Positions 1,431-64,000 of a stretch of 64,000 nt of DNA are shown in pieces. The notes below the pieces were generated by a model, which was not told where the DNA came from, ran no database searches, and saw nothing but the letters and a program-made list of their open reading frames with translations. Source of the DNA: Medicago truncatula (Eukaryota; Streptophyta; Magnoliopsida; Fabales; Fabaceae); NCBI RefSeq assembly GCF_003473485.1, contig NC_053045.1:57702494-57766493 (forward strand), in the 5' to 3' direction. The translations under genes were made by a program, and so were the position numbers. How positions within the stretch are numbered: the first letter of the stretch is position 1; each line of letters begins with the position of its first letter.

Positions 1431-3089
1431 AGCAAGCCAATGAATGAAAGGAGAAGAAGAGTCCTCAAAATAAAACACCCATAAAAGAGTGGAATCAAAT
1501 TGATTGTGCTCACATGCATTCCTTGAAGATGTGATTATTATAAGTTTAACATTGATGTTGTTGTTCGATGAATAATATATGGGGTATTGGAATAGTTTTA
1601 TTAGCGATGCAGATGATTTCTTGTTGGCCGCGGTCACTCGCTCATTTGAGGCTGCATGCATACGATGTTGATAAACTTATAGGTTTGAGATTAGTAGCCC
1701 TCCACAGCTTGCTCAAAACATGGTTTCGTCAAGTTGCTCGAAACATGCTCCTACCTTTGCTTGTTGAACTCAACCATAGATGGAAAATTCAATACTAGAA
1801 AGCTTAATGGAAAATAAAGCTTAATTCAATGCAAGTGGGAACATCCTCTTGAAAAATAAAGCTTAATGGAAAATTCAAACTCAACCAGAGATGTCTTATG
1901 TAGCTCATGTTCTCTGCCGGATTAAAGAGTACTTTGCGGCAAGCTCAATACTAGAAATGATCAACAAATTTTACAATTTAAAGAAATATTGAAACAGAAT
2001 AAATCTGGACACCAGCAATAATAGAACAGAATTGGAAACCAATTCACATTTTAAACGGCTTTGTTTACTTTGATGAAATAAAGAAGAGGGAAAAAAAAAC
2101 ACAATATCTCACTAAATTGTTTCGGTGTACCCAAATCCCTCACCAATAGATCAATCCTAGTGGCTTTGGCTTTACATCTAGCTAGCTAGTTTGACACTGA
2201 ACAAGGATAATCTCAACCCATTTATTAATGAATAAGGGGAAAATGAGATGTGATAAGTCAAGGAGATCTCATTACCTCTTACAAAAAAGGGACGTCTCAT
2301 TACAAGCAATTACATGATAAGATAGATAGGAGCTGTGACTTGTGATAAGGGGCATTCAATTTTGTTCCAGCAATATTAGAAAAAGTAATTTTGTACCATA
2401 ACATAACACCCACAGGCCATAAAATAATCAGATATACTAAGTTTGAAAATCACATAATTTTAGTAATATAATATATAATTGTTCATACTACTGACGATAA
2501 TCAAGATACATATATATATATGCTACACGTGATATCCCAAAGCAGGGGAGATAGTAGTATATAACCATGACCATCTCATGAAATCATACCTCAAAATAGA
2601 TTGTGTTATCAATGATATTGAGTTTGACATGCCATATTAATCTCCATTCCAAAGCAGGCTGCATATTATTAAAACTAATGCATAAAATTACCACCTCAGA
2701 AATTTGAGAAAGCTTTGCAATCAGAACTGAAGCTATTAGTCTTCTTTTACACCTTTGTTGTTAAAATGCTAAGTTGTAGAAACAACACCGGTTCTCAAAA
2801 GCCCATGAATCACAAACATCAACAAGCTCTCAGTCAATGCTTTTATACTTAAAATTACTCCAAACAGTAACATTGGAATCTTTTTAAGAATAAAGCTGAA
2901 GATGAAGAGGATATGTTGCTAACATTGGTAAATCAGTTGAACCTTTCTTCTCAAAGTTATATCAACAGACACTAAATGATTCTCTGAGCACACATCACCT
3001 GGCAAAGTGTAACAAGAGTCAAGAACTGAACCTGTCAAGATCATCCTCATTTTTCTAATCGGAATTCGGCAGCAAAGCTATCTGAATTA
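1431..3089. other. Intergenic, no gene recognised
   Basis: No coding region is supported. The phrase ATGCATAAAATTACC near 2679 recurs near 3577, on the other side of the LTR-like block at 3090-3560, which hints at an older duplication. Nothing else is recognisable. Confidence 0.4.
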
Positions 3090-3560
3090 TGCAGGAAAAT
3101 GGTTCAGAAGTGATCTCAGAATTTACTCAGCTCGATAGGCGAGGAAGTGTATAAGAGCCAATGAACCATGCTTGATCATTGTTAGGTGAAAGGTAAACTT
3201 AGTAAAGTTAAAATTTGAAGAGAAGGAAACAACAGCATGAATGGTGGAGATTGAAAGAGGTGTTGGTTCTGTCATAGAAACAGTCAAATTGGGACTTCCT
3301 CTGTTAGGGTTGTGCAAACTGATCATAGATTCTCTTGAAATCTTGGGTATATTTATATATTCAATGATTGTGAATTGATTAGAATGAAGAGTCAACCATA
3401 TATAGCCCTACCATTAGACCAGCTACAGCAGGTGAGTAGTCTAAGCTGACTGACACTAGTCAGCCAGTTAGTTACAGGGGTGTGCTAAGGAAAGGTCTAT
3501 AGCAAGCTCTCATGAGCTTGCATTAGGTTTGGCTGTACCATCCTTCAATATCCTCTAACA
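3090..3560 (-). mobile_element. Candidate solo LTR (copia-like)
   Basis: Read on the minus strand, this block begins TGTTAGAGGATATTG and ends CCTGCA, giving TG...CA ends over 471 bp. A TATA-like GGGCTATATATGG lies about 150 bp in. The flanks are CAATT before the TG end and TAATT after the CA end, a 4-of-5 match to a 5-bp target-site duplication. No second LTR, primer site or pol gene is visible, which fits a solo LTR left by recombination. An open frame of 90 codons inside it is not a recognisable protein. The family assignment is an inference. Confidence 0.5.
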
Positions 3561-4370
3561 AATTGTTAAAAAAAAATGCATAAAATTACCTCCTCAAACA
3601 GGGCAGCTGCATACCACTTCTACTCTAGACTCTAGAGTCTATTAGTCTTCTATGACTCTTAAAGGAAAAAGGGTTGTGCAGTTCCTATATAGATATTCGA
3701 TGTAATAGATTTCAAATACTGGCATGATTTTCTATTAGAGAAAACTGACACTTATCATCAATATCCATTCAAAACAAATTCAGTTACATCACAGGTAGAA
3801 GAGGAATATCCAACTCAAATAACATATAACAGATACAAATCTAGTGTAAATTAGTAGTTTAATATGCAAATAATTGCCCACCATTCCCCCGCTCTCATTA
3901 TAATCATCAACAGCCATTTGGTCTTCTGATGAATTCAAAACTTGACCGAGCTGCTAAAGAAAGATATGAGTCAAAGACTTGACTTCTTCTAGTATCTGAA
4001 ATCATAAAAATAAAAATGGAGGGCAATATATGCTTACTCATACATTCTAAATATATGTAATTGCTCTCCTATTCCCACTTATTTTTGTTAGAAATTCAAG
4101 CATTGTTCTAATCCATAATTCATGAGGATATATAATATTAAACAACCCACCTCTTAAAAAACAATTTATTGTATAGAATAGAACAATTATATTATCCAAC
4201 CACAAACGCAATCATTCTCTTGTGTCAATTACTTAGAGTTAAAAGAAAAATTAGTGATATAAGTAAAAACTGTGACCAGCAACAAAAAAGGTTCCAACTT
4301 ACTGAGCAAGTGGAACACCACAGTTAAACTAGAACAAGATGAACAAACATAGCATTGCTGGTTTATAAAG

Positions 4371-4605
4371 TTACACCAAAATATGCTTTGACAACTTATG
4401 CAAGCACCAGATGCTAGCATCCTCCTCCACGGAAGCTTCATCTCCAAAACGTTTCACATACCTTTGCAGGAACAGCTCATCCTTCAAATAAAATGGTGCA
4501 GTTAAGCTAGCATCCTTCTTCATCAAACCTTTGGAAAGAAGATACTGGATAACAGAAGCCCTTGGACTAAGCCTTTTCTCTGGATAACAGAAGTTGGGAA
4601 TGCCG
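4371..4605 (-). pseudogene. mTERF-family C-terminal fragment
   Basis: On the minus strand, reading to a TAA at 4371-4373, the translation has the signature end of plant mTERF (mitochondrial transcription termination factor) proteins. It shows EKRLSPRASVIQYLLSKGL, then MKKDASLTAPF, then DELFLQRYVKRFGDEAS. Plant mTERF proteins act in organelles on RNA and DNA. Their last repeat normally reads LEKRLIPR..V...L.SKGL. No upstream mTERF repeats are found in frame, because the sequence beyond about 4605 turns into the repeat block at 4614-5052. After EEDAS the tail diverges from the usual LLKLYE ending. I take it as a truncated relic of a tandemly expanded family; an unannotated 3' exon of a distant gene is less likely. 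Confidence 0.65.
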
Positions 4606-4613
4606 GTCTCTGG

Positions 4614-5052
4614 TATTGAAGTGTCAAGAAATGTACCTCATTCTTTTGATATTTGAATACCATTATTTAATCCCAGCCTAAGAAGAATTTAATCTTTTGA
4701 CAGACAGGAACAATGGGAATGTCGGTCGAATATTGGAGTCATGCTGCTTGGCAAGTTTGAATTTACCTCATTCAAAGGTAAGACAATTGTTGCAGTTGGG
4801 AGGTACAAACGTCACACTGCAACAATTGTCTTCCTTTGAATGAGGTAATTCAAACTTGTTAAACGGTAGGAATCCAGCATTTGATTAGCATCTTGAATAC
4901 TAATATTGAAGTGTCAAGGAATGCACCTCATTCTTTTGACACTTGAATACCATCATTAAAGATGCTGATCGGATGTTGGAGTCATGCTGCTTAGCAAGTT
5001 TGAATTTGCCCTATTTAAGGGTAAGATAATTGTTGCAGTTGGAAGGTACATT
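4614..5052. repeat. Imperfect direct repeat pair with inner hairpin
   Basis: A segment starting TATTGAAGTGTCAAG and including ACCTCATTCTTTTGA, TTGGAGTCATGCTGCTT and ATTGTTGCAGTTGG occurs twice, at about 4614-4807 and 4909-5050. The inverted copy at 4816-4858 sits between them and pairs with part of the first unit. The unit is not recognisable as coding. Confidence 0.65.
4752..4858. ncRNA. Hairpin with about 43-bp stem, small-RNA precursor candidate
   Basis: The arm at 4752-4796 (CAAGTTTGAATTTACCTCAT onward) pairs with 4816-4858. Only two single-base bulges interrupt the stem, and the loop is about 19 nt. The stem length fits a plant MIRNA or young inverted-repeat hairpin. No promoter or mature sequence can be identified, so RNA production is unproven. 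It may simply be a by-product of the surrounding repeat. Confidence 0.35.
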
Positions 5053-36428: not shown

Positions 36429-36553
36429 TGTTGCAGGTTGAAGGAAGGAAAGAAGAGAGAAAGTTTCACGTAGTAGAAGAAACAGAACAAACAGGGTTTA
36501 AGAATCTTGGGCCGTGGTAGTTGGGCCCAGCTATGGACTAGCGCAAAATCTTG

Positions 36554-37300
36554 GAAGATTGCTTTTTAGGCCCCCCCAATATCTCTTTAAGCCCCCTAAA
36601 AATACAAAAATAACCTTTATAATACATCCGGTAGTTACATACCGGTAGTGCATTTTAAATTTTCACATTTTACACCTTCGGTATGTACATACCAGAGGCA
36701 CATTTACAAATTTTCGCGTTTATCGCATTATGTTATTTAAATGTACATGTTCTGCTATGTTGAAAAATTCACAAACTTTTGGTAGGGTGCATAAAATTTA
36801 CAGAAATAAAAGGATCAAACTTTTCATTGAATATGACAGAACTCTAAAAAAATTATGCAGAAACAATACGAGAGAGGAAGAAGCAAGGTTTACCTTCTAA
36901 ATGATTGCAATTGAGTAAAGATTGACGCCATTTGTTCTATTAATTGTGATGAAAACACAACAAAAATTGGCCAAAAAACGCAAGGTATGGAACAATATTG
37001 AAGCTTAGAAAATAACTCTTAAAAAACGCAAGGTATGGAACAACGTGGGTGGAGTACGGTATATATATACCGGAGGTGTAATTGAGAAATCGCAAAATGA
37101 ATGTTCCTCCAGAACATAACTACCGAATGCGATAAACGTGAAAATTTGTAAATGTGCCTCCGGTATGTACATACCGAAGGTGTAAAATGTGAAAATTTAA
37201 AATGCACTACCGGTATGTAACTACCGGATGTTTATAAAGGTTATTTTTGTATTTTTAGGGGGCCTAAAGAGATATTGGGGGGGCCTGAAAAGCAATCTTC
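36554..37300. mobile_element. Mutator-like non-autonomous element, 747 bp
   Basis: AAAATCTTG flanks it at 36545-36553 and 37301-37309, an exact 9-bp duplication. The terminal inverted repeats are about 180 bp: the left starts GAAGATTGCTTTTTAGGCCC and the right ends GGGCCTGAAAAGCAATCTTC. Inside, CGGTAGTTACATACCGGTAG and CGGTATGTACATACC blocks recur in both arms, and AAACGCAAGGTATGGAACAA is directly repeated near 36978 and 37025. No transposase is present. It sits next to the 5' end of the SLOW WALKER2 gene. Confidence 0.88.
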
Positions 37301-37309
37301 AAAATCTTG

Positions 37310-40495: not shown

Positions 40496-40687
40496 GGAAT
40501 TTTACCTCACACCTATACATTTATACTTTCACCCCATTGTGTTATTTATTTGGTTTAATTGAATACACGATTGGAACGCTTTTTATTAAAAATAAAACGG
40601 TTTTCGATTAAGTGCTATAAAAATAGGAGAAAGTTAACAGACACCTAGACATTAGTTAGGGAAATAAAACAAACAAGTTTTGTCCCT

Positions 40688-40797
40688 GTGAGCTTAGCTT
40701 ACTTGGTAAGGGATAATGCATATTATATGCAAACCCCAGACACCCCACTTATTCACCTTTAAGGTGAATTTCTCTAGCCGATAGACTACTTTACAAA
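40688..40797 (+). mobile_element. SINE (family B), first unit
   Basis: GTGAGCTTAGCTTACTTGGT (A box), AATGCATATTATATGCAAAC, the CCCCAGACACCCCACTTATT segment, CACCTTTAAGGTGAATTTCT and the tail CTACTTTACAAA form a fuller version of the family. The B box is shortened (CAAACCCC). ACAAGTTTT lies on both sides as a likely target duplication. Confidence 0.75.
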
Positions 40798-41013
40798 AGA
40801 AAAAACAAGTTTTTTTTTTAGGAATTTTACCTCACACCTATACATTTATACCTTCACCCTCATTGTGTTATTTATTTGGTTTAATTGAATACAGTATTGA
40901 AACGCTTCTTATTAAAAATAAAACGGTTTTCGATTAAGTGCTATAAAAATAGGAGAAAGTTAACCGACACCTAAACATTAGTTAGGGAAATAAAACAAAC
41001 AAGTTTTGTCCAT

Positions 41014-41130
41014 GTGAGCTTAGCTTACTTGGTAAGGGATAATGCATATTATATGCAAATCCCAGACACCCCACTTATTTACCTTTAAGGTGAATTTCTC
41101 TAGCCACTAGACTACTTTACAAAAAAAAAA
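41014..41130 (+). mobile_element. SINE (family B), second unit
   Basis: A near-identical copy of 40688-40797 arising from the tandem duplication, with an A-rich tail of 12. Confidence 0.75.
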
Positions 41131-41376
41131 AACAAGTTTTTTTTTTTTATAAATAAAGTAGTGTGCAAAATTTTTATTCGATAATTTTTTAACCAGTATC
41201 CTGGAAGCAGTGAGACATTGGTTAGCAAGACCAAAAGAAAAAACATAAAATTAAGACATTTACATTGTTACACCACAAATTATTCGATAATATATAATTA
41301 CATATTGTACATTGATTTGAAGAAAAACGACATAAAAACATTGTACCAATTTAAAACCTGTGTTGATACTTTGTAC

Positions 41377-46084: not shown

Positions 46085-47641
46085 CCACGTTTCTTTAACT
46101 CCGGTGTTTCCCTTAAAAAAACTCCAGCGTTGGTTCAATTCACTTTAAAAATTTAACGATCCAATGTCATAGAACCCTCTTTTTACATGTTTAATTTTGT
46201 TATATTCCTTTTCAATAAAATATTTTTTATATAAAATTACTGAATATATAACCTCTTTTTACTTGAAAGAAGTGATTTTATTTTATCAGTAGTATTATTA
46301 CTTTAAAATGATTATGGAATGACAGTACAGTGCTTTCTATGTACTGATACTATAGTGTTTTCTATGTACCGTGAAGAGTGTACTATTTAACCTGAAGAAA
46401 CCTCCAGTACCAAGTAGCTCTGATTGGTCCAGCATGAACCAAAACTTCAATTGGTCCAACCTAAACGGCACCTTGAATCTATATGTATTATTCAATGATT
46501 TTTTTTCTAAAAGAATGCAAAATATGTCTCACTTGTATTATAGAATCAGTCAACAACTAATATTTAGAATATGAAATTTGATAAACATCATTCTATGCAT
46601 TTGTAGTCCGTGTCCCTCAAACAACTTTAATCATTTCACAATACTCACCTACTACTTCATTTTTTCATAAGCGTCTTTTATTTTAGATATCATTATAAGT
46701 TTCATTGCCGAAAATGTAGTTGTTATTGCGAGTACTATGTTTCACATTTTGTTTTTCTCTTTCAATTATCAGCATTGGCCTACGATATTATTTTGAAGCA
46801 CCGTCATCAACTGAAATGTATAATGATTTTTGTTTTCTTTTCGCACAGAATCATGAAATTTCCGAAATATTTGATCATCAAGTTCAACTTTTCTAGCCAC
46901 GATGTTCTAGCCCAAAGAGATCTTTTATATAAAAATACTACCTCTGTCTCTAATTATATAACCCTCTTGAAAAAACAACGGGAATTAAAAAATTTGATAA
47001 TGGTAATAAATTTGTTCAAAAATACTATTGTTTTTACAATTTTATCCTTGAAGAGAGAGTTATTTTATATTTTCAATGTAGTATTTAATGTTGAGTGAAG
47101 AAAAAGATGTAGAATAAATAGGGGTATGTTGGTAAAGAATTAATGAATGTACTTTTGCATACACACTCCATGGAATGGAAATTTCTCTGTAAAAAAATAT
47201 AGTTCAAATTTCATTCTTTGGTTAAAATGTTCGTCGCTACAGTTTCTAGGAATATATATACATCCGCTATATATTAGATTAAATTTTGGCAACTACGAAT
47301 CGACTATACATTTGAATCAACACAGGTTGTTGCATGAAGTAGAAAGACGTGGGATTTACATCATTTTGATTTTGACAAGGTTGGAAATCAATATCACAAT
47401 AAATACAAAACAAACACCTAAAAACGAGCAAATGCACCATTCAAAATCCATGAATCAAAAGGTAAAATAAATCTCAACATTCTTGACCGTCTTCCATCTT
47501 AAGGAAGTACAATCTTATCAACTACCACTAATCAAAATAAATTTAGCATGTTCCTCATGTTTTCTTCCTACCCTATGAAGAAATCAATTTCTATTTCAAA
47601 AAAGAATATTTAAAAAATCATCGAAATGAGGAAAAATAATA
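46085..47641. other. Intergenic between F-box and carrier genes
   Basis: No gene is recognised. About 46945-47110 resembles half of a common MITE (CTACCTCTGTCTCTAATTAT at its edge), without a matching right half. TTTCTATGTAC occurs twice near 46335-46370. Confidence 0.4.
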
Positions 47642-50600
47642 TCAATTCAAGGACTCTAGCCAATCTGACACTGTTTCATATGCTACAAATGTCACTGCAC
47701 CGGCAGGTGCAGCTTTAATAGTTGATGGAATTATCCCCTTGTATAGTCCAGCCCAACCCTCTGACCGAAATATCCGTTGCACGGCATCGTACATATTACT
47801 GTATGCTCGATGCTCAACTCGAGCTCCGTATCTGGGATGCCTTTGAAGTCCTTCGATCTATATAGTAAACAAACAATGAAGACCCATTTTTACATTGATA
47901 GGGATAGAATAGCTTTCTTTAATATCCTTGTTTTAGAAGACATAAAAAGACACTATAAAATCAAGTCTAACATCACTGTTTTACCTGAAACCTTTTCTTG
48001 ACAACATCAAGAGGATGACAAACAAGTTTGGCACATGTTCCAGCCGCCAATCCACAAATGAAAAGCTGAAAACTAGAAATATTATCTTCTCCGGTGGTAT
48101 TGGAAAATCTATTATGGTTCCAAGCCTACAATTTCAAATAATACGGATTAGATAAACTGGTCAAAGAGAATTGTACATTGTAAAGTCAAACTGAAACAAA
48201 ATGTTCATCGTGTGTATGTTGTAATCCAATTTCATACTTCACATAAGTTATAAACAAAATTATGGTTTCAATACAAATTTTAATTTTAGTTATGAGTCAG
48301 AATGAAAACATAACAAATTAACAATAGGTATGACCGTATGAGGCATGACCATGAATAACTTATTAAATTAAAAAAATTAACAAAAAAACTCTTGTTTATC
48401 TACATGGTTAATGCAAAATGAGAAGCAAGTGCAAGCTTAGTTATTGCCATGTAAAGCCAATAGCAATCTATGTACAGAGTTCAACGGCTTCAGCCTAATA
48501 AATTGCATGATGCATTCTGAGAAAATCAAATTCTTCTAGCATATGCCAACATTTAAAATGATGACACATACAAAGCAAAAGAAGCAAGGATATCCTACCA
48601 TGTAAAATCTTAAGACAGTCTAGTCTACCATAAAAACTTACTAGAGTTGCACAATGAACAAAGCACAACATCCATTGCATGCAGGACATAATTATGTCCA
48701 ACTAATAATAATGAGATATTAAATAGAGAGGCTGAAATTTTACCGAGGCCCAACGCTTAAATGTATCATAGGTTCCAAATTGTAGTCCTGCATAAGGTAT
48801 AATCTCAACTAGAGTTGGAGACAATCCAGCATACATGCCTTGAAATCCTCGAGTCTGGATGATATCGACGAATGCTGACCTCATGTTAGGATATACCTAA
48901 ATGATGGCAAAATATGTGCAAAACTTTGTTACAAACAAATTAGTTTGAAAATGACCAAAACAAGATTAGTATTTCCACACAACGCAAAACAGAAGAGCTT
49001 AAATGGCACATGCACAAGCAGAGTTCACTGTTTAATTGATAACAGACTCATAATTTCCTATATAACTCAGGACCACCATGATGTTTCTGTTCAGTAATAG
49101 CAATCCTTAAAGAGGCAGGCAACATAGGCTTGCCAGTAGCAAAGGATCAATATTTAACAATACAACAATCATGGTATGCTAATGCTCAGTCCATTCGCCA
49201 TCTAAGCTCCAGGGGACCTTATTAGTAAAGAATTAAAGATATTTAAGAATACTCGTCTATGAGTTGTGGTCTACTGCCATCATGAATCTGTCAACATGTG
49301 GCTTATATGTTGTAGTTTGTGAGGGCAACTGCTACTACTCATCTATGAGATTTTCATTAGATTAAAATATAAACTGCTATAGTGCCCTCATCAATCATCA
49401 TCTATCTTGAGTTCCCAACACTTACTCTTTAATTAAGAATTTGTGCAAAGAATACTACCAAGGCAAATACTATATTTGTATTTTTATGGGAATCGACTAA
49501 TATGTTAAATGTTGCATTTTTTAGTATACTAATTGATTTTGTTGTTTAACAAGATATATTGTATTTATTGGTTTCATCGGTCAATGAAGTTTGACTTTAT
49601 CACAAATGGTTATGTTTAACAATTGCATTCAATTAACAGCTGACAATGGCATTTCAATATATTTGGTTGTGGAAACATGATTTTCACAAAACTTGAAATT
49701 CCAACCCGCAGTGATAGCCTAGACACAAATGGTATCAAGATAGGGAGCTCAATTGCTGAAATGGGGTAACTATCACAAGTGTGAACATTGCAACTGGTGA
49801 TGATTGCATTGCTATGATCTCTGGTACTGGGAATGTATGGATTTCCAATGTTTTGTGTGGTCCTTGTCGTGGATTTAGTGTCGGAAGCCTTGTTAATAGT
49901 GATGGGGAAGATGTTGAAAACATAGATATGAGGAATTACACCCTGAGTTGTAGAAGCAATGGTCTTAGGACTAAAACATGGGCTTCTCCATTGAGCAAAA
50001 CTTGTAAGGTTTCTAATTTTGTCTATGAAGATATTATGATGAATAATGTGTATAAACTCATTGTTATTGATCAAGAATATTGTCCAAACAGCGCTTGCAA
50101 TAATCAGGTTAGTACTTTTAACCCTCATTCTAATTATAATATTAAACCCAACTTACATTTTAATGCCAATTTGATTTAGTGGGTTTAATATTAGAATTGG
50201 AATGTGGCTAAGTACTAATCTTAAAGGTGCAGGCACAATTCAGACAATACTCTTGATCGATAACAACAAAATTAACCACTTTATTCATCACAATATCTTC
50301 AGAGAAAAAATTAGAAGCCTTCAAAGTTTAGCTCAATGGAGAAGCATGTGTTTTAATCCTAAGACCGTTATTTGTGCAACTGAATGTGCAATTCCTCATA
50401 TCTATGTTTTCAACATCTTCCCCATCATTCTTACCAAGGCTTTCAACACCGATTCCATGACCAAGACCACAAAGAACATATGAAATCCAAACATTCTTAG
50501 TACTAGAGATCATAGCAATGCAGTCATCACCCGCTGCAACGTTCACACTTGTGATAGTTACCATTTGAACCCCTATTTTGATACCATCTATGTTTGGGGT

Positions 50601-52908
50601 ACCACCAACACCTGGAATTTCCAGTTTTGTAAAAATCAGGTTTTCACACTCAAATATATTGAAATGTCCTTGTTTGCTGTCAACTGAACGGCATTGTTGA
50701 ACACAACAATTTGTGACAGTCAAATTTCATCGACAGATGAAACCAATAATACAAAAGATATTATAATCGCATACCAATATATCTTGCTAAACAAAAAAAA
50801 AAAATAGTATACCAAAAAATGCAACATTTAACATATTGCTATACTCCCATGAGAAAAAACATATTGTTAGAAGGACATTCAAATATATTATTTGCCTTTC
50901 TTTGCACAAAATGTTAATTAATGAGTAACCGTGGGAACCTAAATTTGTAGATGATTAACGAGGAACTGGAATTATTTATAATAATTCGTGTCCATTAGAA
51001 ATATTTCTAATGGAACATCCCATAGATAAGTAGTGGCAGTTACCCTCACTAACTATAACATGTACCCACCGCTGGACAACAAGTTCAGTGATAACAGTTA
51101 CCCACACCCACGTGTGTAGACGAGTATTCTAAAATATTGATTCTTAACTTTTAAATATGTTGATTCTTTGTCACAAATGGTTATTAAATACATTTTACCG
51201 ACCTTCACGTTAACTAGGAGGACAATCAAATATATATTTTATATCCATCACTGGATTACAGGTTCAGTGATAGCACTTCCCACATCTCATAGACGAGTAT
51301 TCTAAAATATATTGATTCTTTGTCACGAATGGTTATTAAATACATTTTACTAAACTACACGTTAACTAGGAGGACAATCAAATATATATTTTATTGCTTT
51401 AAAGTTGAATGTCTGGCTTGAGTAAGATCATATTTGTCTTCTTTAAAGTGTATGGTGCACTCCAAAAGAATGTGATGCTCTAGAAAACACAACTCACATG
51501 ATATGACCGGATCTAAAAAACTATATTGGCTAATAAGCCAAGAAACCAAAGGGGAACACTCACCCGAGAAAATAATGACGTTGACATAAAACACTGAAGC
51601 ACGAAGATTGAGATGTAGTCGGCCATACTAATGGTGGGGAAAAAACTTAAAGTTGTATGAACTGGGAGGTCTATGAAGCATCACATAATAACAGCCATTA
51701 ATTGGTTTCAATGACCTTCAAAACATTTAATCACACAAATTTACTTTGAAACTATATTACAGCCTTAAATTTATCAATGCTTATACCTTTGGCTCGCCTT
51801 GAGAAGCTAATATGGTTCTGAGAAGATCAAAAGGATATGAACCAACAGTAGCTGCACACCCGGCTAGCGCACCACTGACATAGGATAGATAAGGGCTCAA
51901 ATTAGTGTGATTCTCTGCAGAAACAAATAGCAACCTATGAACAAGCATAAATCTAGAATAATAGAATATATATATTAATTTCCTGGTATGTAACTATATT
52001 TCTAGAGCATGATGTGTACCTAAGCGTATATTTTGGCAGCAAGTGTATATGAACCAATCCATTAACTTCAGATCACACTCTCAGGTCTCAACCAGTGCAA
52101 AAAAGCCTTGTGCAAACAGAGGGTCTCTTTGGATTGACTTATTGAGTTTAACTACTGGATTAAGCACTTGTAAGGCTATTTGGGAGAACTTATGGAAACA
52201 TTTTGCATTTATTTGATCTTTTGTTATACAAATAGCCTATGCATAAGCACTTATATGATAAGCATGTAACTATTATAATGAATTTGAAAACCATATGGGC
52301 CTAACTTCTATGATTTAAAACTAGTGTCTGGCTAATGAAGCAAACACGTTGGAATGAAACACTGAATAACACAATAGAATACCTGACTTAGAAGAACCAG
52401 ATGCAAAAGTCTTCAACTTGTGTAAAACTGTAAATTGAATGGCTGTATATGGCATAACCATGAGCAACGCCGGTACATTGCCTCGCCAAAATCCCTGTAA
52501 ATATGTCACAGAAAAAGTAGCCTTTTGTAAATAAACAAACTTGTTCAGGTTAGAAAAAAGGGTTGCTTAATTTGTACTACTACTACTGCTACTACCTTTA
52601 AACCTTCTTCTCTAAGAATATCTTTGGTAGCTTGAAGCATACCAGTATATTTCGATGGCGCGGAGGAGACCAAATCTTTTTGCAGTAAAGCCCATGAAGA
52701 TGTTGGTTCAAGTTGAACCTGTAATTGTGAATGTTAATAACATGAACATAACAAGAATGAAACAATGAACAAGGTAAAAATAAAAACGTACCTGAAATCT
52801 AATCTTAATAACATCAAGAGGTGATGTTACAGTACGAGAAATTCCACCAGAAATTGCCCCAGCAGAAGAATCAATGATGGCACGATTCAGTTGGCTGGGT
52901 TCCTCCAT
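47642..52908 (-). CDS. Mitochondrial thiamine diphosphate carrier
   Basis: Seven coding exons close exactly to 990 nt, 329 aa. Coding order: 52908-52792, 52718-52596, 52494-52383, 51914-51787, 48896-48744, 48125-47985, 47857-47642. The three mitochondrial-carrier repeats each keep the PxDxx[KR] signature: SPLDVIKIR (Pro30), YPFDLLRT (Pro145) and HPLDVVKKR (near Pro249). They are followed by [28 protein letters not shown] and [14 protein letters not shown]. The N-terminus ([20 protein letters not shown]) and overall text match plant carriers related to yeast Tpc1 and human SLC25A19, which bring cytosol-made thiamine diphosphate into mitochondria for pyruvate and 2-oxoglutarate dehydrogenases. 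A 5' UTR intron probably lies upstream (52909-53116). Intron 4 (48897-51786, 2890 bp) holds the polygalacturonase inverted duplication. Substrate is inferred from family resemblance. Confidence 0.92.
49640..50108 (+). pseudogene. Exopolygalacturonase fragment, plus-strand copy
   Basis: The translation shows TKLEIPT in one frame, then [20 protein letters not shown] in another, [20 protein letters not shown] and [20 protein letters not shown]. Glycoside hydrolase family 28 motifs are present but damaged: the catalytic GDDC is intact, while GHG is changed to CRG and RIK to RTK. Frame shifts near 49770 and lack of the gene's ends mark it as dead. Relatives cut pectin, often in pollen. Confidence 0.75.
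50210..50723 (-). pseudogene. Exopolygalacturonase fragment, minus-strand copy
   Basis: On the minus strand [80 protein letters not shown] and [16 protein letters not shown] are readable. GDDC, GHG and RIK of glycoside hydrolase family 28 are kept; the first motif NTDG is changed to NIDG. It stops at TAA after SPLS, though homology continues ([16 protein letters not shown]). N- and C-terminal parts of the enzyme are absent. Confidence 0.8.
51105..51395 (+). repeat. Direct repeat pair next to the inverted duplication
   Basis: GACGAGTATTCTAAAATATT, TTGATTCTTTGTCAC, AATGGTTATTAAATACATTT and GTTAACTAGGAGGACAATCA occur at about 51120-51238 and again at 51292-51393, a tandem unit of about 175 bp. 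The first copy overlaps the outer end of the right arm. Confidence 0.75.
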
Positions 52909-53313
52909 TGCCACAATAAAAAAATTAAAAAATGAAAAAAACCTAACTTTTTCCCTTTTCGGACTATTGTAACACGAAATCAAACTTGCATTTCCTTTAC
53001 CCCTGTTAATTAATAAGTAAACAGAGTATAATAGTGTGATTAATTGATATTAGGGTTTGGATTTAATTAATTAATGTAAAGGGTAAAAACTAGGAGAACG
53101 AAAAGATGGAATTTTTACCTGTAAGAGAAGAAGATGAAGGAGGCAACAGAGAAGAGAAGGGAGACAAGAATTGAAGAAAGAAGAAAACAAAAGGACCAAG
53201 GTCCTTTGATTTGGTTTTATTATGTCGTGTTATTATTATTCAGATTTAGTTTCCTTTTTTGACAAATTTGCTGGGATTTTGACTCGGATGTTTAACAAAG
53301 GTTTTTTTTTATT

Positions 53314-58742: not shown

Positions 58743-59898
58743 TGGTTAATAGTGTTTTTCATCCCTGTAATATAGGTCATTTATGGTTTTCGCCCCTACA
58801 AAATTTTCGGTTCGAATTACATCATAAAACTTTTTTTTTCTTCCACAAAACACACCTCCCCCATCCAACTCAGCAAATTCGCTTACCTGGCGCTGATTTG
58901 ACATTTTTTTTTTAATTGGCCACGTGTAAAAAATATATCTCACATCAGATGATATTTTTAAAATATTTGAAAATAAATTTAAAAAAAAAAATCCAAAAAC
59001 TTATAAAAATATTCAGTTTTTTTTTCCAAAAATTTAAAAAATCGAATATTAAATTTTACAAAATTCAAAAAAAATATTAAGATTTTTTGCGAAAAACAAA
59101 AAAATAGTCATATTTGTTTCCAAAAAATTTAAAAATCGAAAAAAAAAATAGAAAAAATCAGAAAATATAATCAGATTTATTTTATAATTAAAAATATTTT
59201 AAGAAATTCTGGAATTTAATTTTCAAAATAAAAAAAAGGCAAATTTTCAAAATTACAAATATAGAAAAAATTCAGATTTTTTATTCGAAAGTTTTATTCC
59301 ACAATTTTAATAAAATATTGGGAAAAAAAATCATTTCGTTCCACAAATATAAGATTTATGATTTCTACCTCCTCTAAGGAAAAACTTAATTCTAGGAAAA
59401 ATGGAATTTCCACGACTTTTTTAAAACCCTCTAAATTTATATCCAAATTTTTTTAAAAAATCTGACCTTTTTTTTTATTTTGAAAATTTACTTTTTTTGT
59501 ATTTTGAAAATTAAATTCCAGAATTTTTCAAAATCTTTTTAATCGAAAAAAATCTTAATAGTTTTTTTTCTGAATTTTTTAAAAATTATTTTTCGATTTT
59601 TAAAATTTTTGGAAAAAAAACTGAATATTTTTATGATTTTTTTTTATTTTTTAAAATTTATTTTCTAATATTTTAAAAGTAAAATCTGATGTGAAAATAT
59701 TTTTTTGCACGTGGCCAATTAAAAATAATAAAAAATGTCAAATCAATGCTACATAAGCGAATTTGCTAAGTTGGGTGGAGAGGGGTGTGTTTTGGAAGAA
59801 AAAAAAAAGTTTTTCAAGGATGCAAATCAAACAAAAATTTTACAGAGGCGAAAGCCGAAAATGACATATATTACAGGGATGAAAAACACTATTAACCC
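58743..59898. mobile_element. Mutator-like foldback element, 1156 bp
   Basis: The flanks TTATATTTA (58734-58742) and TTATCTTTA (59899-59907) agree at 8 of 9 bases. Terminal repeats of about 190 bp start GGTTAATAGTGTTTTTCATC at the left and end GATGAAAAACACTATTAACC at the right, sharing CTGTAATATAGGTCAT and AGCAAATTCGCTTA blocks. The middle is A/T homopolymer-rich, itself loosely palindromic and non-coding. It is a sibling of 62670-63686. Confidence 0.85.
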
Positions 59899-61529: not shown

Positions 61530-62669
61530 AAGATAACTAATTTTATATGCATAATTTTTTTTAATCAAATGTAATTAATTGTTTTTGATATTGTAAAAAA
61601 TAATGTAATCTCAAAGGTGTGATTCATGAAAACTTGTTCTATGAAAGTAAAGAACTCTTTGTCAAAACCAACAAGAATAAAAATGTGGAGTACTATATCG
61701 ACGATCAACAACTGAACATTTCAAACAACTAGCAATAAAGTGTAAAACAAATTCACATGCAAAGCAAACACAATAAGATAAAGTTAGTAGATGAACAAAA
61801 ACACCAAGATTTATAATTACCTAGTTTGACCAGAAAATGATTTGTGTATGGAGAATAAAGTAACTCTAATTCATAATGAATAAATTTCTAACAGCCAGAT
61901 ACAGAAGAGTTGCTATAAATTAACTTCAAAAGTTCTTTTAAGAACAAACTTAATGTTCTACACATTTATCAATCGTTTCCTAGGAATAAAAGACTTGTGA
62001 TTTTCACTCAATTTAAAGTATTTATAATGTATTTACTAGCCCAAAAATCTCTTCTTTAGTCGCTTAATTCTTAGCCTCTAATTTTCACTCCACTTAATGT
62101 TCTACAGTTTTCTCTTCTCTATTTCTTCTATCTTTCTCTTATACCAAACAATTCATCAAATTCATTCTATTTCTCACCTTTTTCTCTCGTCACAAACTCT
62201 CTCTTACCTACTTCTCTTCTATACCAAACACACCCCTAATGAGATGAGATTTCAAGGCATATAAAACAATTACAAATTGGTCCCTATTTTCAAATTTTAA
62301 ATAAGACCCAAAACTTTAAAATTATAAAATAAGTCAAAAATACTAACAATGAAATTTTTTATCACTCTATCCAAACAAAAGCGTTTAAAAATAAAAAAAT
62401 TTCAATTGAATCATTTAAATTGTCTAAAATTCAAAATTTTCAATTATTCATTCAAACATACTCTAAAATCTCATAACAAGGTAAACACCCAACCAAAAGA
62501 AATATATACTTGAAGATGGAATCAACATCATATTGTATATGTACATCTTCATTAATATTTCACAACTTCTTCTCATTTTTTTTTATACCGTCCATCTTTT
62601 CTAGATATATGTATTCACATGTATGCTTTAAGTATTTGATACTTATTTCGTAAAATATATTTTGAAAAA
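61530..62669. other. Intergenic, no gene
   Basis: AT-rich with a pyrimidine-rich stretch (62100-62235, TTCTCTTCTCTATTTCTTCT and similar). No coding region is supported. Confidence 0.4.
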
Positions 62670-63686
62670 GGGTTAATAGACCTTTACCCCCTGTAAATAG
62701 GACACTTTTGGTTTTGTCCCCTATAATTTTGTTTTTTAGATTCCGTCCTGGTAAAATAAAGATTCTTCAGGATTTCCTCCGAGCCATTTGAGTCAGCAGA
62801 ATCTCTGACGTGGCAGCTACGTGTTTTTTTTTTTTTGCCACGTGTGAAAAACATTTTACACGACATTAATAATTAAAAGAATATGAAAAAAAATTCAAAA
62901 ATTATAAAAAACGAATTAATTAGTAGAAAAATAATTTGTTTTTAAAATTATAAAAAAAAATCTCAAATTTATTATATTTCAAAATTTTCGAAATCTTTTA
63001 AAATAATAACGAAAAAGATTCTAAAATATCCAAATATAAATTAAAATTAAAGAAACTTCGAAAAATATTATATTATCTAATTGTTTTATTTTGAAAATTA
63101 AGTTCCAGAATTGTTTTAAAATATTCCTAATTTCGAAAAAATTGATTTTTTTTTCATTTTTTAATTTCGAAAAAGATTTCATAAAAAATTATATTCAAAA
63201 TTTTGTAAAATCTGAATTCTGGAACAATAGTTCAAGATTTTATAAAAAAAAATTCAATAACAAAACTGATTTTTAAAAATTAAATTCCACATTTTTTAAA
63301 TATCTTCTTAATTTCGAAAAAGATATGAATTTTTTTCTATTTTTTAAAATTTCGGAAAAAAAAACCTAAATGTTTTTTAATTTTTGAAAAAAAAATCTGG
63401 TTTGAATTTTTTCAGATTTTTTTAAAAAGATTTTTCATTTTTTTTAATTTTATTTTTTAATTTTTTAAATATAAATGACGTGTAAAATATTTTTTACGTG
63501 TGGCAAGAAAAAAAAAAAAAAGAAGAAAAAGTCACCTAAGTGTCACATCAAAAATTCTGCTGAGTCAATGATCTTAGGGTGCAATCGTGAAAAATCTTCA
63601 TTTTACAAGGACGGAATCTAAATTTTTTTTTTACAGAGGACAAAATCAAAAGTATCATATATTACAGGGGTAAATACCTATTAACC
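62670..63686. mobile_element. Mutator-like foldback element, 1017 bp
   Basis: TTTGAAAAA is found at 62661-62669 and 63687-63695, an exact 9-bp target duplication. The ends are GGGTTAATAGACCTTTACCC and, inverted, GGTTAATAGGTATTTACCCC. Shared inner blocks include TTTTGTCCCCT/AGAGGACAAAA, TTTTAGATTCCGTCC/GGACGGAATCTAAA and GCCACGTGTGAAAAA/TTTTTACGTGTGGC. The centre is A/T-rich and non-coding. Confidence 0.9.
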
Positions 63687-63695
63687 TTTGAAAAA

Positions 63696-64000
63696 TAAAT
63701 AAATAATCAGGATATTCTAAGATAGATGTCTACTCGACACATGTAAGTCTACAATTAGATGTATATTTAATATAACATTTCTCTAATTTTAGACTTCATC
63801 CTTAAAAAAAAAAAAAATAGTATCTAGACTTCATATTAATAGATGAAAGCTGACATATCGTGAATCATCAAAAAATAATTAGGCAAACAAAATCTCTTTT
63901 CTCGAAGAATAAATAATGGAGAATTCTTATGTATTTTGATGTTCAGCTATGTATCGTACTTCAAAACAAACCTCATTCAAAATATAATTCTATTTTTAAA
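63696..64000. other. Intergenic at window end
   Basis: AT-rich, no gene or bounded repeat seen. Confidence 0.4.

Follow-up and report, generated by a model that had tools for sequence, protein, structure and literature searches.

An inverted duplication of a GH28 polygalacturonase exon, predicted to form a long hairpin, in a mitochondrial-carrier intron of Medicago truncatula

The locus

The window analysed here is a 64,000-nt stretch of Medicago truncatula DNA (contig NC_053045.1 of assembly GCF_003473485.1, positions 57,702,494 to 57,766,493). It contains a mitochondrial-carrier gene on the minus strand with an intact-looking reading frame and a spliced product of 329 aa. The protein has three Mito_carr stretches (Pfam, E 1.3e-73), and its 13 matches among solved structures are headed by ADP/ATP carriers and uncoupling proteins. 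Intron 4 of this gene harbours a large inverted repeat derived from a GH28 polygalacturonase gene. A sequence-only reading of the window had placed the repeat in this intron, and the GT-AG exon borders and the spliced protein confirm the location; the thiamine substrate that this reading gave to the carrier is putative. The features discussed below are as follows (window coordinates).

48897-51786, minus strand: intron 4 of the mitochondrial-carrier gene, GT-AG, 2890 nt
49224-50163, plus strand: left arm, with an outer noncoding part, GH28 exon 3 and the start of GH28 intron 3; GH28 sense on plus; in the host transcript the 3' arm, antisense to GH28
49581-50107, plus strand: GH28 exon 3 remnant of the left arm (tblastn with exon 3 of the C3 gene, E 3e-53; translation; Pfam)
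49765-50117, plus strand: 353-nt core of the left arm, aligned without gaps to 50210-50562
50142-50188, no strand: loop region with the innermost cross-centre pair of the predicted fold
50172-51149, minus strand: right arm, same stretch as the left arm; GH28 sense on minus; in the host transcript the 5' arm, sense to GH28
50220-50717, minus strand: GH28 exon 3 remnant of the right arm (tblastn, E 4e-61; translation)
51063-51394, plus strand: partial tandem duplication at the outer right end, units 51063-51242 and 51242-51394

Self-alignment resolves the inverted repeat (49224-51149) into arms of 940 and 978 bp and a small loop. The initial estimate of about 900 bp per arm was thus close, and the span first given, 49246-51140, misses the arm ends by only 22 and 9 bp. 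Arm limits (49224-50163 and 50172-51149) were set by hand from the alignment, and the identity script used 50173-51149. In the arm-to-arm alignment, 743 of 894 bases are identical (83.1%, where about 80% had been judged by eye), with 151 mismatches and 129 gap columns; self-BLAST returns the palindrome as 49219-51154 at 72.4%, with gaps counted. A loop of about 30 bp had been proposed, a fair figure given the 8 nt between the hand-set arm limits and the 45 nt that separate the innermost cross-centre pairs in the minimum-energy fold. The tandem units at the outer right end are 75.7% identical over 181 columns (self-BLAST), 90 bp of them at 93%.

Both arms match Pfam PF00295 (E 7.1e-31 and 7.8e-30), as the description of two opposed GH28 pieces had implied, and each consists of polygalacturonase exon 3 plus the adjoining intron ends. 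In the left-arm exon, the stretch 49581-49751 contains two in-frame stops, the frame shifts between 49751 and 49760, and 49760-50107 is open. In the right arm, the match begins at exon residue 7 and contains one in-frame stop; TAG and TAA are counted when the match is extended into intron 3. GH28 exons 1 and 4 gave no match at the repeat (tblastn, E up to 1), and exon 2 matched only at chance level (tblastn, E 0.053). A functional GH28 polygalacturonase was considered and rejected on the presence of exon 3 alone, the stops in both arms and the left frameshift.

Predicted folding and divergence of the arms

Because the carrier gene looks intact and both arms lie in its intron 4, they are presumably transcribed with the host. 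The host transcript strand is predicted to fold as a single long hairpin of -971.5 kcal/mol with 739 cross-centre pairs, in agreement with the long imperfect hairpin proposed for this strand; eight mononucleotide shuffles of the repeat gave -414.0 to -433.1 kcal/mol. A 798-nt core folds at -458.8 kcal/mol, whereas 20 dinucleotide shuffles average -175 (sd 6.23; z -45.55), and a small inner stem is predicted in this core fold at 50142-50188. With G-U pairs counted, the longest unbroken helices of the predicted hairpin are 42, 33 and 30 bp. By this model, the transcript strand is self-complementary over a long distance, as in endogenous inverted-repeat siRNA loci. The earlier suspicion that such a hairpin might be imperfect or decaying is borne out by the arm divergence, the in-frame stops and the frameshift.

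Mismatches between the arms amount to 15.5% in 49224-49560, 17.1% in 49561-49764, 18.1% in 49765-50117 and 16.2% in 50118-50163, and within 49781-50107 they fall 20, 18 and 25 times on the three codon positions. This even spread, along the arms and over codon positions, appears much as in neutral DNA. Changes private to one arm number 32 (left) and 36 (right), and 20 of these 68 are in third positions, versus 39 of the 84 private to the C3 gene, an intact-looking GH28 relative; a second one, the C8 gene, likewise lacks a third-position excess (11 of 35), which makes this test weak. No sign of selection for coding appears in the codon position of the mismatches, and the wobble-transition test gives no significant sign of selection for pairing in the arms or in the 353-nt core. 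On the transcript strand, wobble-preserving and G-U-breaking transitions number 46 and 36 over the whole arms (p = 0.32, no significant excess), and G-U-keeping and G-U-breaking ones 18 and 19 in the core.

All 33 gap events lie outside the 353-nt core, which nonetheless carries 64 mismatches (Fisher p 2.5e-7 versus the rest of the arms and 0.0018 versus the rest of the exon, for a core that was selected for being gap-free and a gap count that varies with scoring). When gaps were placed at random, 0 of 200,000 trials reached an equally long gap-free stretch. Indels are expected to accumulate faster in AT-rich noncoding DNA. Relative to shuffles, the longest identical run between the arms is 38 (p 0.033), identical 21-mers number 24 (p 0.048), and the three identical runs of at least 21 show no significant excess (p 0.22). 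Run lengths are therefore weakly uneven and gap placement strongly uneven.

Related genes and genomic context

The arms are homologous to extant GH28 genes outside the locus, as a proto-MIRNA locus would be. The nearest intact-looking ones, C3 and C8, are only 72-75% identical to the arms, a level at which few siRNAs would find a closely matching target. For the 920 21-mers of the left arm, best matches at 0, 1 and 2 mismatches number 0, 15 and 30 at the C3 locus and 0, 11 and 36 at the C8 locus; for the 957 of the right arm, they number 0, 7 and 31 at C3 and 1, 8 and 20 at C8. One chosen arm 21-mer occurs unchanged in the C8 gene (C8:11576614-11576634) and with a single mismatch in the C3 gene (C3:14833522-14833542); it finds 5 places in the genome at no more than one mismatch, and its reversed control finds 0.

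Neither the outer piece (49219-49520) nor the tail (51100-51420) matched anything but this locus in a search of the 430-Mb genome that omits very common words and scores the best candidates only. In that search the terminal sequences found themselves, the opposite arm and, at the right end, the tandem copy. No inverted repeat listed in 264 kb (the window plus 20 regions of 10 kb each) has longer arms. Such repeats are common in this sample: the 20 regions, which were hand-picked at round coordinates and are non-random, contain 9 with arms of at least 150 bp. The low-complexity filter was off for this count, and AT-rich simple sequence may account for some of the repeats. Contig C2 carries another GH28 inverted repeat, arranged the opposite way and close to a retroelement-like one, and a foldback-like element of another kind occupies 58744-59897 of the window. 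Rfam gave 0 matches at gathering score, and hence no known MIRNA family, in 47500-53200. Among the literature matches listed, the excerpts contain no description of a polygalacturonase inverted repeat in a plant intron.

Origin and alternative explanations

The explanation that we favour, with a probability of roughly 0.72, is a decaying inverted duplication of a gene fragment in the intron, capable of forming dsRNA and possibly leaking siRNAs. GH28 exon 3 with the flanking ends of introns 2 and 3 would have arrived in carrier intron 4 as a tail-to-tail inverted duplication, after which both copies would have drifted as noncoding DNA. A single palindromic duplication is suggested because the arms share changes relative to the intact-looking GH28 genes, and the repeat is probably tolerated because splicing removes it. 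When transcribed, dicing may give a low, heterogeneous siRNA population with no selected target. JC distances between the arms are 0.17-0.21; with a neutral rate near 1e-8 per site per year, the duplication would, very roughly, be about 10 million years old. The gap-free core counts against this explanation, as uniform drift does not predict it, and so do the two GH28 inverted repeats of different arrangement, which could exceed an effect of family size.

A working endogenous inverted-repeat locus of a proto-MIRNA-like kind, in which DCL2, DCL3 and DCL4 would dice the carrier pre-mRNA hairpin into siRNAs that act in trans on matching GH28 genes, appears unlikely. The long hairpin on the transcript strand, the 21-mer shared with C8 and nearly with C3, and the gap-free core are consistent with it, and IR71-type transcribed long inverted repeats are processed by these enzymes in Arabidopsis, according to excerpts of PMC12825306 and PMC4687873; pairing selection, however, is not significant, and few arm 21-mers come close to the C3 and C8 loci, with a single exact one (right arm, C8). 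The silencing of GH28 genes envisaged by the sequence-only reading is partly supported: structure, strand and a few 21-mer matches permit it, but the arms diverge much as neutral DNA would and the nearest intact-looking GH28 genes are only 72-75% identical. It is very unlikely that, in pollen or root, the carrier promoter drives a hairpin whose siRNAs target a few GH28 genes, with the C2 hairpin acting alike, polygalacturonase dosage tuned and the 353-nt core kept. A cis-acting sirtron, with hairpin siRNAs guiding methylation of the carrier gene or GH28 loci and no mRNA cleavage, is quite unlikely. Intron-derived siRNAs (sirtrons) were reportedly first described by Chen et al. in 2011. The hairpin is intronic and on the host strand, and excerpts of PMC5545994 describe intron-derived, DCL2/3/4-dependent siRNAs as a class, but with the carrier reading frame intact, the host gene shows no visible damage.

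Almost the entire unit is an inverted repeat, as in a foldback or long-TIR (Mutator-like, Pack-type) transposon with a captured GH28 piece; a foldback-like element, though of a different kind, lies in the same window, and plant transposons carrying gene fragments are known (excerpts of PMC1947982 and PMC3310237). We nevertheless consider this origin highly improbable. The outer ends lack another match among the best-scored candidates of the genome search, which makes a multicopy transposon unlikely; the GH28 piece makes up the arms themselves and is not cargo between them; and target-site duplications, sought by eye only, were not seen. Read artefacts can yield inverted duplications, but a chimeric inverted read would leave near-identical arms, and we judge an assembly artefact to be refuted by arms that are 17% diverged with 33 gap events.

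Relation to known systems

The repeat can be regarded, at most, as a candidate for the known endo-IR and proto-MIRNA kind. In Arabidopsis, the excerpted account of IR71 (PMC12825306) gives a dsRNA of about 3 kb from which siRNAs are made by DCL2, DCL3 and secondarily DCL4, and that of endoIR-siRNAs (PMC4687873) states that an RNA-dependent polymerase is not needed. A long RNA hairpin is likewise predicted here, but it is intronic, has a stem of about 0.95 kb at 83% identity, and its siRNAs are only putative. The sirtron class shares with this locus a hairpin in an intron on the host strand, again with siRNAs that are putative here. The soybean GmIRCHS (I locus), in the excerpted text of PMC13051633, consists of pseudoCHS inverted repeats clustered with a CHS gene and is linked to natural CHS silencing and to seed-coat colour. 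Both are natural inverted repeats of a gene fragment in a legume, but GmIRCHS is tied to a seed-coat phenotype, and the nearest intact-looking GH28 genes here stand at 72-75%. Proto-MIRNA loci reportedly arise by inverted duplication of the target gene (Allen et al. 2004). The present locus is likewise an inverted duplication of a protein-gene piece with some family match retained; it differs in its arms of about 950 bp, in showing no sign of kept pairing and in having no match to a curated RNA family.

A hairpin prediction, however strong, is no evidence of silencing, and the case documents the decay of an inverted gene-fragment duplication within an intron. If siRNAs were shown, the locus would exemplify a hairpin of genic origin expressed from a host intron, and it would come with candidate targets already named and a 21-nt site open to testing.

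Structure of the intronic repeat

The host of the inverted repeat is a mitochondrial-carrier gene on the minus strand. Its exons, when spliced, translate into a 329-residue protein, in which a domain search identified three mitochondrial-carrier stretches.

Features of the host gene and of the GH28 repeat in its intron 4
52792-52908, 52596-52718, 52383-52494, 51787-51914, 48744-48896, 47985-48125 and 47857 downward, minus strand: carrier exons with GT-AG borders
48897-51786, minus strand: carrier-gene intron 4
49224-50163 and 50172-51149, inverted to each other: arms of the repeat (894 aligned bases, 743 identities, 129 gap columns)

The sequence-only reading had described two opposed pieces of a glycoside hydrolase 28 (GH28) gene in this intron, and the arm alignment and the exon content of the arms establish that they are real. 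In a self-BLAST the palindrome reaches slightly further, to 49219-51154. GH28 exon 3 is present in both arms, flanked by the inner end of GH28 intron 2 and the first bases of intron 3, in the exon structure of the GH28 gene on contig C3. The alignment to the C3 gene begins at about 49517, and over their outermost 300 bp the arms match none of the other fetched loci. Neither exon 1 nor exon 4 of GH28 was matched at the locus, and the exon 2 match is at chance level (E 0.053); a window-wide search to E 0.01 found no further GH28 exon pieces. A 150-180 bp stretch is tandemly repeated at the right end of the locus. The arms lie tail to tail, such that the host transcript would have GH28 sense sequence in its 5' arm and antisense sequence in its 3' arm. 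Both arms lack three bases that the C3 gene and a second GH28 gene, on contig C8, have, and this shared absence favours a single origin for the two.

Predicted folding

Folding of the intron had been proposed as a check on hairpin formation, and the computed structures predict a long hairpin on the transcript strand. On that strand, the predicted energy of the 1926-nt repeat is -971.5 kcal/mol (-937.9 on the opposite strand), against a range of -414.0 to -433.1 kcal/mol for eight mononucleotide shuffles. The structure contains 739 cross-centre pairs, and its longest uninterrupted helices, counting G-U pairs, measure 42, 33, and 30 bp. A 798-nt core fold reached -458.8 kcal/mol, versus -175 (sd 6.23) for 20 dinucleotide shuffles. 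When the whole intron was folded (one base off, 48898-51787), 434 pairs bridged distances above 800 nt, some of which are not arm-to-arm.

Divergence of the arms

In the outer part of the arms, 15.5% of aligned bases are mismatched; the figure is 17.1% for 49561-49764, 18.1% for the core (49765-50117 versus 50210-50562), and 16.2% for the inner end. Across codon positions, mismatches number 20/18/25. With the C3 and C8 genes as the reference for polarity, at sites where these two agree, 19 changes are common to the arms, 32 are left-private, and 36 are right-private; a further five sites, where each arm departs from the genes in its own way, were kept separate. Third positions hold 20 of the 68 arm-private changes, as compared to 39/84 private changes in the C3 gene and 11/35 in the C8 gene, and this low share in the C8 gene itself makes the test weak. 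Of the transitions, 46 keep a transcript-strand G-U pair and 36 do not (p 0.32); in the core the numbers are 18 and 19. Codon positions, private changes, and G-U transitions thus give no significant sign of selection on protein or pairing.

There are two exceptions to this picture. The 353-nt core, chosen post hoc as gap-free, contains none of the 33 gap events despite 18% substitutions, all 33 lying in the arms outside it. Indels are expected more often in AT-rich noncoding DNA, and the core is only partly explained. The longest identical run and the count of identical 21-mers are in weak excess (p 0.033 and 0.048), but the number of runs is not (p 0.22). Overall, arm divergence points mainly to drift, in keeping with the earlier suspicion that the hairpin may be imperfect or decaying.

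GH28 relatives and other inverted repeats

The genome searched comprised 429,922,655 bases in 42 contigs, with the window at 57702494-57766493 of contig C4. Including the locus itself, the left arm gave 8 DNA matches, and the right arm plus tail gave 9. The best outside the locus are the GH28 genes on C3 (75% and 74%) and C8 (72% and 74%), both with intact-looking exons, followed by decayed tandem pieces on C7, a C5 gene (69%), and an opposed pair on C2 (71-76%). Exon 3 of the C3 gene is similar to plant polygalacturonases of solved structure (ADPG2 scoring best, E 1.1e-38); the subgroup is presumably 'exo'. A GH28 family search listed at least 148 matches (123 of 284 candidates scored), and by eye the locus is the only opposite-strand pair within 5 kb among those listed; the C2 pair was found by DNA search only. 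Medicago Pg11 is described as a pollen gene on chromosome 2 and Pg3 as an infection-thread gene on chromosome 5 (PMC3517903); neither was recognised among the present loci.

Inverted repeats in the fetched C2 stretch (L018)
4167-4875 (C2, about 50,961,670-50,962,370): GH28 repeat, arms about 355 bp, 72.6% over 738 columns
1635-2745: repeat about 1.4 kb from the GH28 repeat, arms about 555 bp, 77.6%
2956-3184: smaller repeat between the other two, 85.5%

The C2 GH28 repeat is head to head and passes directly from exon 3 into exon 4, with the intron missing, from which we infer that it arose separately from the intronic one. Its predicted folding energies are -299.5 kcal/mol for one strand and -314.2 kcal/mol for the other. 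The piece at 1635-2745 was taken by eye for a copia-type gag.

In 20 regions of 10 kb, hand-picked at round coordinates, nine inverted repeats with arms of at least 150 bp occurred in eight regions, and one had arms above 300 bp (329 bp, 69.6%). The window has seven inverted-repeat entries and three separate places with arms above 300 bp. By these counts, the GH28 repeat is unusually long, yet inverted repeats in general are common in this genome sample. Elsewhere in the window are an AT-rich foldback-like element with ends that look Mutator-like or MITE-like by eye (58744-59897; arms about 577 bp, 72.3%), a weak palindrome (62655-63700; arms about 523 bp, 63.6%), a 179-bp inverted repeat (36551-36729 and 37126-37303; 96.6%, 396 bp between arms), and a direct tandem duplication of about 325 bp (40496-40819 and 40821-41146; 95.4%).

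Possible silencing targets

The arms were compared as 21-mers with five loci rather than all 148 listed GH28 places. Best matches at 0/1/2 mismatches were 0/15/30 (C3) and 0/11/36 (C8) for the 920 left-arm 21-mers, and 0/7/31 (C3) and 1/8/20 (C8) for the 957 right-arm 21-mers. The exact 21-mer has five genome places at no more than one mismatch, namely both arms, the C8 gene, the C3 gene, and the C2 repeat; its reversed control has none.

Known substrates of DCL2/3/4 include long transcribed inverted repeats (PMC12825306, PMC4687873), the soybean inverted repeat GmIRCHS is linked to the silencing of its own gene family (PMC13051633), and intron-derived siRNAs are a described class (PMC5545994). 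The locus has the same architecture as these systems; siRNAs, their defining product, would be a putative product here. In the ordinary reading, the locus is an inverted pseudogene fragment within an intron. A regulatory reading, based on the predicted structure and the few 21-mer matches, is possible, in which the locus would act in silencing.
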